Below the pieces are notes generated by a model, which saw only the letters and a list, made by a program, of their open reading frames with translations, was not told where the DNA came from and ran no database searches. Both the position numbers and the translations under genes were made by a program. Positions 4,691 through 42,300 of a stretch of 64,000 nt of DNA are shown in pieces. Origin of the DNA: Bacillota bacterium (GTDB taxonomy: Bacteria > Bacillota > Sulfobacillia > JAJYWN01). Each line of letters opens with the position of its first letter. Within the stretch, counting starts at the first letter, position 1. The DNA lies in contig JAJYWN010000063.1 in assembly GCA_021791495.1 (NCBI GenBank), forward strand, positions 1-64,000, in the 5' to 3' direction.

Positions 4691-4961
4691 CGCTTCAGAT
4701 CTTACCTAGCGATGCGGCTTCACGCGGGTTCCCGCAAATCCTTCCGCTGGAAATTGGCTGGAACTCTGCGGCGGCTGGAGCGAACGGGGGCGAACGAGGA
4801 ACGGGGGCGACCAAGGGCGACAGGCTGAATAGGAGCGGGGTGAACGGGCCCCGAGGGGGCGGACGAAGGATGCAAACCGTGGCTACAGGAGGTGATTGAG
4901 GACGACCGGAGGAGACCGGAGGTGACCGAGGGCGACGGTCGGTTTCAAGGACCGCGCCCTT

Positions 4962-5200
4962 GTCGAACCTTCCGTCTTTCCGACCGGCGCCTCCTCCGAG
5001 GCCTCCGCAGGACGGTTGCGGATGTTCGGAGGACAGTTCCAGGCCGGCATTGCTGGCTGTGGTAGACATAACCGATGGACTTATGTTACCCAGAACGGTT
5101 TCTGGACACGTCCCGGACGGATTTTCTTGATCTTGACGGGCCTCGCCAGCTCTCAAGGCCCTTTGCCGAAGCCCCTCGGTCGGAAAGACGGAAACTTTCC
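4962..5200. repeat. Paired inverted-repeat element, family 2 (TTCCGTCTTTCCGACCG), copy a
   Basis: The 17-nt core TTCCGTCTTTCCGACCG occurs at 4970-4986 and, inverted, at 5177-5193. The left arm is preceded by GTCGAAC, as in the copy at 36354-36561. The interior (about 190 bp) has no open frame of note and is not obviously similar to the other copy. The layout is that of a non-autonomous inverted-repeat element. It lies between the winged-helix gene and the 3' end of the MBOAT gene. Confidence 0.6.
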
Positions 5201-5261
5201 GGGTCGCCATTCCGCCAAATCGACCGCCTGCCGCTCCGGCTGGCGGTCACGCCCGCCGGGC

Positions 5262-34000: not shown

Positions 34001-36277
34001 GGGTCGCTGTCGCCGGATGTCGTGGCGCCGGGCGGGGCGGTGGCACCGTCCCCCTTGTGGGCGCAAGACGGGTCCTATGCCCTGCAAGAGGGGACCAGCA
34101 CCGCCGTGCCGCACGTGGCGGGGGTCGCGGCGCTGCTCTTGGAGGACGCCAGGCTTCTGGGCTACTCTCCGGCGACGGCGGACCTGCGGGCGGCCATCGA
34201 GGACGGGGCGCGGCCGTTGCGCGGCTACAGCCTGGTGGAGCAGGGCCATGGAGTGGTGGATGCGGCGGTCAGCCTTGATTTGTTGCGGCGGATGGAGAAG
34301 GCGCGGGCCGGCGGGGTGGGCGCGGCCGGGGTGCCGGCGGCCTACCAGCTGGACGTCGAGTTGGACTCGCCCAGCGGCGGGCGCGGGGTTTACTGGCGCG
34401 ACCGGCCGAACGCCGGTTACGGGGCGGCTTACGGTTTCGAGGCGGCGGATTCGGTGGGAGACGTCGGTGTGACGCTGAGCGCGGCCAGCCCTTGGGACGG
34501 CGGGGTGCTGCGCCTGACTCCCGAGGCCAATACCCGGGAGACCGGCGCGGACAAGGCCCATCTCACCTTGGCGCTGGGTGCGGGGAGCCGCTCGATGCTG
34601 GCCCATTTCGACTTGCCGCCGGAGCCTGGGCTGAGTACCACCATGTTGGCGCTGAGAGACGAGGCGGGCCGGACGGGCGGGCAGCTGTTGGGCACCTTCG
34701 CGATTCCGTGGCACTTTGAGCCGTCCCTGCCGGGCAGCGGCGCCCGCAAGATCGTCTTGGAGGGCGCGGTCGGCCCCGCCAAGCTGCAGCGGTACTACTT
34801 CCATGTTCCGGTGGGGGCAACTCAGTTGCGGCTTGGGCTGTCCGTGCCGGTTTCGACGGCCGCCGCCGGCACAGGCACCGGCACAGGCACCGGCACAGGC
34901 GCAGGCACCGAGACCGGTGGCGCCGCTGCCACCCGCAGTGCCCGCGGCGCCCAGGGTCGCGTCCGGCTGCATGTCATTCGCCCCGACGGCAAGGAACTCT
35001 ACCTCACCGACTACGTCGGCGCCGGGGCCCCGGACGGGCCGACGGGCCAGCTCCTGGCGGCTGTGAACCGCACGGTGGACCGCCCCATGGCCGGTACCTG
35101 GGAAGTTATCGTCCACAGTTCCTCCGCCCTCTCGGGTTACGGCCTCTCCGAGTCCCGCTACACCTTGGAGGCCGGCCTCGACTGGCTGGACCTGTCACCC
35201 TCGTCGTGGCAGGGTCCCGTGGAAGATGGGAAAGTGCGCCGCGTCACCGTTGGCCTTGGCAATTTCACCGGGCGCACGCTGCGCCCCGAGGCGCTGGCCT
35301 TCGGCCCGTCGTCCAGTCCGTCCGGCGCGGGCGCGGGCGCCGGCAGCGTCGCCTACCCCTCCCTGGTCACCGTCCCCTACGGCGCGAACTACACCTTCGT
35401 CCTGCCCGACGTGCCGGCGACGGCGGGCCTGCTCCGCGTGGCGGTGGCGAACCCGTCCGATCCCGGCGCCGACCTTGACCTGTTCCTGTACCGTTACGAC
35501 CCCGTCAGCCGGCGTTGGATCTCCTTCAAGACGTCGCAGACCGATGGCGTTTCTAATGAGGTGATCGAGGTGACCGACCCGCCGGCGGGCCAGTACGCAG
35601 CCTACGTGGAGGCGCGGCGGGCCACGGGCGATGTGAAGTGCGAGTTCGAGGCGGAGGAGTTCGACCTGCGGGGGTTGGTGCAGGTGAGCCAGACCAAGGG
35701 CGCGCGGGCGCCCGGCGAGATGTGGACGGTGGGCGTCGACCTGCCGTCGTCCCAGTCTACGGACGAGTCCTTCACGCGACTGGTCATCAGGGACGAGGAG
35801 GCGGGGCGCACTTTGGCGGTGGTGCCGCTGACCGCGGAGACGGGTAAGCCGCGCCTGCTCGCGACGGCTGTGGCGGGGGCTCCGGATGCGGATGGTAGCT
35901 TCCGCGTCGTGCTGTCGTTCCGGGAGCGGTCCAGTAAGCTGCCGGCGGCGGTGGCGGCCAAGGTCAACGGCGTCACCCATTTCGCCGCGGGTGGGCAGAT
36001 AGTGCTTACCATGACCAAGGCCCGGATGGGGGCCGGAGCGGGGCGGATCACGGTGGAAGTGGTGGATCCGACGTACGAGTCCTTGTCCAGGGTTTTCGTG
36101 GTGGAGCCGGCGGGGGCGGCGGGGGCGGCTATCGTCCCTGACATGACTGGGACGGGTGGCGCGGCGGGCGGCGTGACTGTCGGCGGCGATCAGCCCGCCG
36201 GTCAGTCCGCCGCCGGCTTGGCCGAGTACCTTGACAGCGTGAGAGAACGGCTGACTACGTTGATATTCGCCCGGTAG
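31001..36277 (+). CDS. Giant SLH-anchored subtilisin-like serine protease
   Basis: A 1758-residue exported protein from ATG 31001 (GAGGTG upstream), with a signal peptide ending near SAVPVSA. A Gly/Thr repeat linker leads to three SLH repeats (about 125-355), then two post-SLH beta domains (LRGTVQWASAES and VQGTVLSVKADV). The S8 catalytic domain follows: Asp677 (IAIVDTGADPSHP), His851 (GNGHGTQVAGL), Asn948 (AAGNEGPA) and Ser1033 (GTSTAVPHVAG). An insertion of about 150 residues separates Asp and His and includes VYVDTNRDFKFTDEKPM. About 700 C-terminal residues are beta-rich, including pre-peptidase-like segments (DLDLFLYRYDP). Probably an S-layer-bound protease. Confidence 0.9.
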   Translation: MIRSRSFAILVLIFAVLATTVAGSAVPVSAREIDVGGGSTSGGTAGGTSGGTMGGAAGGIAGGIAGGTAAGTAGGTTGGTTGTTGTTGSTTTTGGTTGATGGTTTTTSGTTTTTGGSSGGASTGGSWADVTAHWARHDIDLMRAKGAIATPSDQAFQPDTPVTRGDFIRMQTIAAGLLSEAETLSASPAPSYFTDIAPADPLKGFIEAAYEAGLTTGFEDRTFRPDLELNRAQLVTFLLRGLGMEGQARARATLYAGTVGGPTATVGRGGSPAGTGGRGGSPAGTGGTGGSGRAAWLAAFPFADAADVPEWARGYMSLAADIGLVKGYEDKTIRPARPTTRAEAAALLVRTMNLAGRAYDLRGTVQWASAESRALVVDIGDGSGGEILEVAASAGVYRNGRPATLGDIKPLDEVSVVFEHGGWVSFVEAGSAERMGYVSSVDTTKHTVTILPQTGPPWAWGSASGSGTGSAISSGDVTPATYPVTYELEAGARVFLSGLPADLAFLRPPDRVYLLLSPSTGRVKVVDAVRAAVQGTVLSVKADVNAIDVRAANGGSDSTVTAALGARVFRNGRAATLRDLVQGDWVALAVDDQGHFTFAEALSRDAGGSTGSTSSTGSTSSTDVGPARLITSRETDGTPLPLDAVASAASNEHDLRLDAFHLLSPADGSGVTIAIVDTGADPSHPVLQQASDWRAKIVDYQDFSGEGDVDTSASARPYRGTIETSFGIVTVDRIPTASGRYHYGLLRESQLAKGGAIANDLNHNGSDRDTYPVLVTDAVVAGAYDTVYVDTNRDFKFTDEKPMQPFVSGHAVNFFGVDDPRTGVAETTAFVVTRVAADGGSVNLGFDGNGHGTQVAGLTAGFGRYRGLADGIATGAKLMILKTLNSAGDGSWDSIAQALNYAADHGADIATLSVATVGDRSSGSSLESRLLRDLAVRRGLTIVVAAGNEGPALGSAATPGAPEVITVGASYSAGMYQALYGFVVPEEGVWPFSSVGPRRDGSLSPDVVAPGGAVAPSPLWAQDGSYALQEGTSTAVPHVAGVAALLLEDARLLGYSPATADLRAAIEDGARPLRGYSLVEQGHGVVDAAVSLDLLRRMEKARAGGVGAAGVPAAYQLDVELDSPSGGRGVYWRDRPNAGYGAAYGFEAADSVGDVGVTLSAASPWDGGVLRLTPEANTRETGADKAHLTLALGAGSRSMLAHFDLPPEPGLSTTMLALRDEAGRTGGQLLGTFAIPWHFEPSLPGSGARKIVLEGAVGPAKLQRYYFHVPVGATQLRLGLSVPVSTAAAGTGTGTGTGTGAGTETGGAAATRSARGAQGRVRLHVIRPDGKELYLTDYVGAGAPDGPTGQLLAAVNRTVDRPMAGTWEVIVHSSSALSGYGLSESRYTLEAGLDWLDLSPSSWQGPVEDGKVRRVTVGLGNFTGRTLRPEALAFGPSSSPSGAGAGAGSVAYPSLVTVPYGANYTFVLPDVPATAGLLRVAVANPSDPGADLDLFLYRYDPVSRRWISFKTSQTDGVSNEVIEVTDPPAGQYAAYVEARRATGDVKCEFEAEEFDLRGLVQVSQTKGARAPGEMWTVGVDLPSSQSTDESFTRLVIRDEEAGRTLAVVPLTAETGKPRLLATAVAGAPDADGSFRVVLSFRERSSKLPAAVAAKVNGVTHFAAGGQIVLTMTKARMGAGAGRITVEVVDPTYESLSRVFVVEPAGAAGAAIVPDMTGTGGAAGGVTVGGDQPAGQSAAGLAEYLDSVRERLTTLIFAR

Positions 36278-36353
36278 GTCCGCGGGAGGTGGCAAATTCG
36301 TTTGTCGGCTATCCCCTCTGGCGGGGACGGTCTAGAAGAGGGAATGCCGGCAT

Positions 36354-36561
36354 GTCGAACGTTCCGTCTTTCCGACCGGCAGGTCGGCGTAGGGCTACTT
36401 GAAGATCGGAGACACCGGTGTTTGGGTCGACTCCGTAACATAATTAGTAATTATGAGTCAACTGGGACGAAGTCCGGGAAGGATTCATCGGCTCTGGCGG
36501 ACCGGAAGACCGGTCGGAAGGCGGAAAACCGGTGAGTGGTCGGAAAGACGGAGTGTTCGAC
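36354..36561. repeat. MITE-like element with 24-bp terminal inverted repeats, family 2 copy b
   Basis: The left end (36354-36377, starting GTCGAAC and including TTCCGTCTTTCCGACC) and the inverted right end (36538-36561) match at 22 of 24 positions. The 208-bp element has no coding capacity. Near its centre lies the AT-rich palindrome CATAATTAGTAATTATG (36439-36455), flanked by GACTC/GAGTC. The wider gap 36278-36831 also holds the hairpin CTCCTGGAACCAGGAG near 36655. No transposase is nearby, and no target-site duplication is evident by eye. Confidence 0.65.
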
Positions 36562-36831
36562 ACGGGAGTATTCCTTGGAACCGACCGGCGGGTCACCCGC
36601 GCGGCGTTCGTGTCTCCGAGTGATGTGACAATGATGATGATAATGAGCGAATTCTCCTGGAACCAGGAGGATATGCCGAAAAGCGGTGGAATAGGCTGAG
36701 GTAGTACAGACCGAAAGGCTTCAGGCCGCAACCCGGCAAGCGGGTACCTTCATCTCACCTCGGAGAACGTTCCCCTGCAAACATTGAATTCCGAGTTCAG
36801 TTCTAGCGGGTTTTCCACCGGGGGTGCTTCC

Positions 36832-38291: not shown

Positions 38292-38324
38292 TTCCGACCG
38301 GCAAAACCTCTTTCCGACCGGGGG
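38292..38324. repeat. Partial family 2 repeat (TTTCCGACCGG)
   Basis: TTCCGACCGG occurs twice as direct repeats 20 nt apart (38292 and 38312), matching the ends of the elements at 4962-5200 and 36354-36561. It looks like a fragment or solo end. It lies in the gap before the transaldolase gene. Confidence 0.45.
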
Positions 38325-38428: not shown

Positions 38429-39069
38429 TTGAGGTTCTTTATCGACACGGCTAACATTGCTGAGATCAAGGAGGCCCTGGACTGGGGAGTCATCTCGGGA
38501 GTGACCACCAACCCCTCTTTGGTGGCCAAGGAAGGCCGGGATTTCCACACAGTAGTCAAGGAGATCTGCGGGCTGGTCGGCGGCCCGGTGAGCGCCGAGG
38601 TGCTCAGCTTGAAGGCCGATGAGATGGTGGAGGAGGCCAAGGTGCTGGCCAGTCTCAGCGAACACGTGGTGGTCAAGGTCCCCATGACGAAGGACGGCCT
38701 CATGGCCACGAAGCGGCTGCACGGGATGGGGATCAAGACTAACGTCACGCTGGTCTTTTCATCCGCCCAGGCGCTCATGGCGGCGCTGGCGGGGGCCACC
38801 TATGTCAGCCCCTTCGTCGGACGCCTTGACGACGTGGGGAACGAGGGCATGACGGTCATCGACGAGATAGTGGAGATCTTTGAGCTGCATGACTTCGACT
38901 GCCAGGTCATCGCGGCCAGCATCCGCCACCCCATACATGTGATAGCCGCCGCCAGGGCGGGGGCCGATGTGTGCACGGTGCCCTATAAGGTTTTGGATCA
39001 GATGATGAAGCACCCGCTCACCGACATCGGCATTGAGAGATTCCTGGCAGATTGGGCGAAGGTCAAGAA

Positions 39070-39073
<4 letters not shown>
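38429..39073 (+). CDS. fsa: Transaldolase of the fructose-6-phosphate aldolase-like (TalC/FSA) family
   Basis: A 214-residue TIM barrel, the usual length of the small transaldolase/FSA group. The N-terminus [20 protein letters not shown] is the family hallmark, and the Schiff-base lysine is in [25 protein letters not shown] and [17 protein letters not shown] bind the substrate. Members exchange dihydroxyacetone in the non-oxidative pentose phosphate pathway. TTG 38429 follows GGGGGTG. The stop overlaps the rho start (ATGA), an order conserved in Firmicutes (ywjH near rho). Confidence 0.88.

Positions 39074-42300
<3,227 letters not shown>

Follow-up and report, generated by a model that had tools for sequence, protein, structure and literature searches.

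A 64,000-nucleotide stretch of one contig of a Bacillota genome (hereafter the window) holds, between a protease gene and a set of lysine-fermentation genes, a short segment with inverted ends. A preliminary description read this segment as a 208-bp MITE-like element with 24-bp ends and a palindrome near its middle. The locus raises the question of whether the segment is a mobile element, a DNA site kept by the host or a structured RNA, and how far it is distributed.

Extent of the element and its copies

Positions 36354-36377 and 36538-36561 agree in inverted orientation at 22 of 24 positions, as first described, and this is the sole inverted repeat in the window with at least 22 of 24 matches and a loop of 50-400 bases; three Markov-resampled windows contained none. 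Comparison with related copies extends both arms outward to 49 bp, the arm reading GGTCGGTTTCGAGGAATGCnnnCnTGTCGAACGTTCCGTCTTTCCGACC, which places the 24-bp ends at the inner side of longer arms and enlarges the element (e1, Table 1) from 208 to 258 bp. It has no internal gene, in agreement with the preliminary description: the S8 protease stops at 36277 and kal starts at 36784. The inner 208 bp are only mildly AT-richer than the window (GC 56% vs 65%).

The AT palindrome near the middle of e1 is present and occurs once in the window, the row on the other strand being the same site. Its dyad score was equalled by 1 of 300 shuffled windows, for a site picked post hoc; the corresponding counts were 11 for e2, 12 for e6, 38 for e5 and 72 for e3. 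A central dyad as a conserved part of the family was rejected, as only e1 stands out and the dyad sites had been chosen after inspection. The 17-nt core earlier noticed on either side of positions 4962-5200 does mark a related element, e2, although its limits lie further out (4937-5225). The 17 nt common to both window copies, TTCCGTCTTTCCGACCG, belong to the arm and not to the palindrome. A solo end proposed at 38292 is not supported: it is absent from the 12 rows that the arm model R1 returned at E<=10 for the whole genome, and 0.63 matches of its quality (14 of 17) are expected per window.

In the genome (4.2 Mb, 81 contigs, 97% complete), five full copies (258, 289, 277, 290 and 246 bp) and one solo arm are dispersed across five contigs. 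The R1 rows comprised four arms in the window (two elements), two on contig C72, two on C21, the solo arm on C8 and three on C6, where two rows are one arm on both strands and the third is the inner part of its partner. A model of whole elements, R2, was trained on the five arm pairs and gave back precisely these five full copies, at E 1.8e-57 to 8.4e-34 and each of them in reverse as well, together with the C8 arm; the other 4 of its 16 rows in the genome had E 0.014 or worse. Because the copies were in the training set of R2, leave-one-out HMMs were made, which gave all five elements 38.1-88.0 bits as oriented, compared to a dinucleotide-shuffle maximum of 11.7 (189-200 of 200 shuffles scored per element). 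The HMM built from the other four copies gave e1 53.2 bits (shuffled maximum 8.8). For e2 the score was 41.6 bits in the orientation used and 62.9 bits in the opposite one, against a shuffled maximum of 5.3. A fixed orientation of the copies was favoured by pairwise local alignments and unsupported by other tests, and we treated the elements as effectively symmetric.

All five full copies have 49-bp arms, and there are 11 arms genome-wide. Each arm is itself an imperfect dyad of the form GGTCGG-N6-GGAATG-N13-CGTTCC-N6-CCGACC. All six sites, the C8 arm included, are intergenic and lie between unrelated genes. The neighbour names S8, SLH, BKACE, 4HBT, MBOAT, FMN_red, TPP, M20 and S51 are based on Pfam. 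The names RNase G, GNAT, kal, kce, rplU, Rho and transaldolase were given to other genes from the look of their sequences, RNase G and GNAT by eye, and the 4HBT-fold gene is presumed to be kal from its neighbourhood.

By ORF lists the copies have no coding capacity, with mechanical overlapping ORFs only. No transposase was found between the arms of any copy or among 10 scanned neighbour genes, and R1 found no further arms in the genome that would mark a transposase-bearing element with matching ends, which the preliminary description had suggested looking for. The target-site duplications that it also proposed to look for are not visible either, in that no adjacent direct repeat borders any of the five full copies. 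Its reading as a non-autonomous mobile element without a visible transposase is supported in part: the data establish a dispersed, non-coding family bounded by inverted repeats, which may have been mobile.

Two side observations concern the surroundings of e1. To the eye, the leader from e1 to kal (36587-36783) contains a number of short inverted stretches of high GC, and it may have a regulatory role; Rfam gives no match there at gathering score. A protein at 39052-42300 of the window, presumably Rho-like, has a long N-terminal extension (~650 residues) of low complexity in which A, G, R and P abound.

Table 1. Repeat features in the window, and the genes beside each site of the family in the genome
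Feature	Window position	Strand	Description	Support
Full element e1	36329-36586	+	258 bp, between S8-SLH protease and kal	R2 E 3.0e-43 (e1 itself among the training copies)
e1 left arm	36329-36377	+	49-bp inverted arm	R1 E 5.9e-12; alignments A4/A5
e1 right arm	36538-36586	-	49-bp inverted arm	R1 E 1.8e-12
e1 near-central AT dyad	36439-36455	.	CATAATTAGTAATTATG	Single copy in window
Full element e2	4937-5225	+	289 bp	R2 E 8.4e-38
e2 left arm	4937-4985	+		R1 E 4.3e-13 (model row 4937-4986)
e2 right arm	5178-5225	-		R1 E 1.5e-9 (model row 5177-5225)
e2 near-central dyad	5066-5086	.	ACATAACCGATGGACTTATGT	Read from sequence
e1 site			S8-SLH protease / 4HBT-fold gene (kal), then BKACE gene (kce)	
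e2 site			MBOAT / weak HTH protein	HTH under Pfam cut-off
e3 site			FMN reductase / TPP enzyme, convergent genes	
C8 solo-arm site			GNAT-like ORF / unknown ORF	
e5 site			Unknown ORF / M20 peptidase, convergent genes	
e6 site			RNase G / S51 peptidase	

Distribution among related genomes

The closest named genomes by transaldolase belong to Candidatus Fermentithermobacillaceae (66-67%), and the relatives used for synteny are of the same order and a different family. The order S8...kal-kce-tal is kept in three of these same-order relatives (G001, G002 and G003), all three without the element. The genes between S8 and kal differ, with a receiver-domain-like ORF in G001 and a convergent ORF of ~650-700 aa in G002 and G003. 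An R2 search of eight related loci (71.3 kb) found no element. Because the relatives represent another family, a gain at the kal site is not separable from a loss. At a second site, G002 and G003 have RNase G and then rplU within about 240 bp, and here the same interval (L041 2889-5728, on C6) holds e6, the S51 peptidase and a 404-aa ORF, with e6 at the junction. A single-copy feature with identical synteny in all relatives, the outcome that would speak against mobility, is therefore not what was found: further copies exist, and three syntenic loci are without the element.

Beyond these loci, R2 found the family in this genome only, both among 154 genomes of the class, besides three weak matches, and among 398 sampled genomes of the phylum at E<=0.001. 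The weak class-level matches of R2 (3 of 153 other genomes, E 0.0044-0.0052) and of R1 (4 of 153, E 3.7e-4 to 0.0098, one unpaired arm each) were taken as chance; the best arm match, the sole one read, falls in what by eye looks like coding sequence. Distant blastn with one copy (e3) gave no match in plasmid and phage collections. The exact arm pattern had no match in genome_contigs or viral_contigs, searches which may leave out records of this genome and, being exact, miss copies this diverged. Text searches of the literature, as distinct from searches by sequence, named no such family from this lineage among the entries listed. As far as searched, the repeat family is private to this lineage.

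Two details of the relatives were recorded in passing. In all three same-order relatives, kal is preceded by a motif resembling CCTGCCAnTGTCGAnCG (L083 4790-4810, and the kal leaders of G002 and G003); its Spo0A-box core is exactly TGTCGAA in G002 and G003 and TGTCGAG in G001. The match to a kce homologue in G001 (L079, C152:5341-6174) contains one in-frame TGA.

Conserved arms and diverged interiors

Left arms have a mean pairwise identity of 0.70, right arms of 0.61 and interiors of 0.41. By a separate comparison the interiors average 0.434 vs 0.392 when shuffled (sd 0.018; 0 of 60 shuffles reach the observed value), and a weak homology of the interiors may remain. The two arms of one element are more alike than arms of different elements, the observed likeness being reached by 4 of 120 permutations on alignment A5, by 5 and 7 of 120 on A6 and by 9 of 120 with pairwise alignment. 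The signal is modest; it is in keeping with lineages of elements whose two ends match, and an RNA stem also predicts it.

One rival reading is a structured non-coding RNA, some 250-290 nt long, with a stem between the arms closing it. The 43 pairs between the arms are formed in 86.5% of cells, compared to 79.9% after column shuffling (a value as high in none of 500 shuffles), and 11 pairs are changed on both sides vs 5.9 in the shuffles. However, G.U and A.C mismatches are about equal (14 vs 11, p 0.35; 16 vs 13 on A6). Since an RNA stem should favour G.U, this balance argues against a selected stem, and it is as for DNA symmetry. Strong by column shuffles, the stem was carried neither by this balance nor by permutation of whole arms, where the covariation is that of only 4-9 in 120. 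The strand relative to the neighbours is inconsistent, as the copies are oriented here, and Rfam gave no gathering-score match to the element, its one sub-threshold match lying outside. We regard such an RNA as very improbable. A hairpin within each arm was also rejected, its pairing being accounted for by conserved letters and without covariation.

Another rival is a family of DNA sites maintained by the host, in which the arms would be protein-binding dyads under selection that spread by duplication instead of transposition. Each element would possibly have two Spo0A boxes and a central dyad, and would act in gene regulation or in the organisation of the chromosome. In its favour, the arms are 61-70% identical and the interiors 41%. 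TGTCGAA, given as the core of the Spo0A box (PMC3485338), recurs in 8 of 11 arms, always at the same position of the arm (alignment A5); a Spo0A_C protein is encoded in the genome, and the kal leaders of G002 and G003, which have no element, carry TGTCGAA as well. However, the motif is missing from one e2 arm and both e6 arms, and a simple count finds it 8 times in the window, three of these in e1 and e2. Of the six places, two (e3 and e5) are flanked by convergent genes, a setting in which no promoter site is expected, and no searched relative carries the family. Given how short and frequent TGTCGAA is, and given these two convergent settings, we rate the Spo0A idea as a lead only, and consider the host-site reading as a whole unlikely. 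A more specific version is a long shot: the units would be no dead transposons; they would be portable, host-kept sites that spread a sporulation-linked regulatory or architectural site round one chromosome, two dyad-symmetric arms, most with a Spo0A box, flanking a central dyad, and e1 would take the place of the Spo0A box found in relatives ahead of the lysine-fermentation genes.

The nature of the family

The reading that we prefer, and hold to be fairly probable, is a relic, low-copy family of MITE-like repeats, moved in trans by a transposase that has since been lost. This enzyme, now lost or missing from the assembly, would have acted on the arms and carried the units, or copies of them, to sites between genes. 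The arms would have been preserved by selection for the ability to transpose, and the interiors would have diverged separately in each line of elements.

Within one MITE, copies usually have the interior in common. Here the interiors are hardly alike, and the small number of copies, the lack of target duplications at them and the failure to find a transposase also weigh against the MITE reading. The family is like prokaryotic type II MITEs (PMC10969869) in being under 500 bp, non-coding, intergenic and dispersed, with inverted ends, in similarity that is largely confined to the ends and, so far as relatives of another family with different intervening genes can tell, in its absence at syntenic loci. 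It is unlike them in its 49-bp arms, compared to about 4-30 bp in the same account, in having neither visible target duplications nor a known parent IS, in not being AT-rich and in its only five full copies with very diverged interiors. The target duplications of prokaryotic MITEs wane with age and the similarity of type II MITEs is confined to the end regions (PMC10969869), and both fit this family. Since the duplications wane, their absence is not decisive for old copies. Still, without visible duplications its membership among MITEs is incomplete, and as several tested MITE features were not found we do not call the family a proven MITE.

Other small repeats were compared by description. 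ERIC has a palindromic structure, and families of the ERIC and Correia type share interiors between copies. The present family is like these in being a lineage-specific, imperfectly palindromic intergenic repeat, but they have tens to hundreds of copies (PMC10969869). It also resembles REP, BIME and REPIN repeats in its inverted pairs of dyad-symmetric arms and in the one arm (C8) that stands alone, and a Y1 (RAYT) transposase dispersing extragenic palindromes in pairs would account for this. However, REPs are described as 20-40 bp long and of high copy, and here there are six sites in 4.2 Mb, with longer arms (49 bp) and spacers (about 150-190 bp). We think an origin of this kind highly unlikely.

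On the relic MITE-like reading this is a new family of a familiar kind, without a visible engine to move it, and a lineage of Bacillota that has received little study gains a small repeat family. If the arms bind Spo0A, the family would exemplify a mobile-like repeat that spreads sites for a developmental regulator; otherwise, it is ordinary genome furniture.
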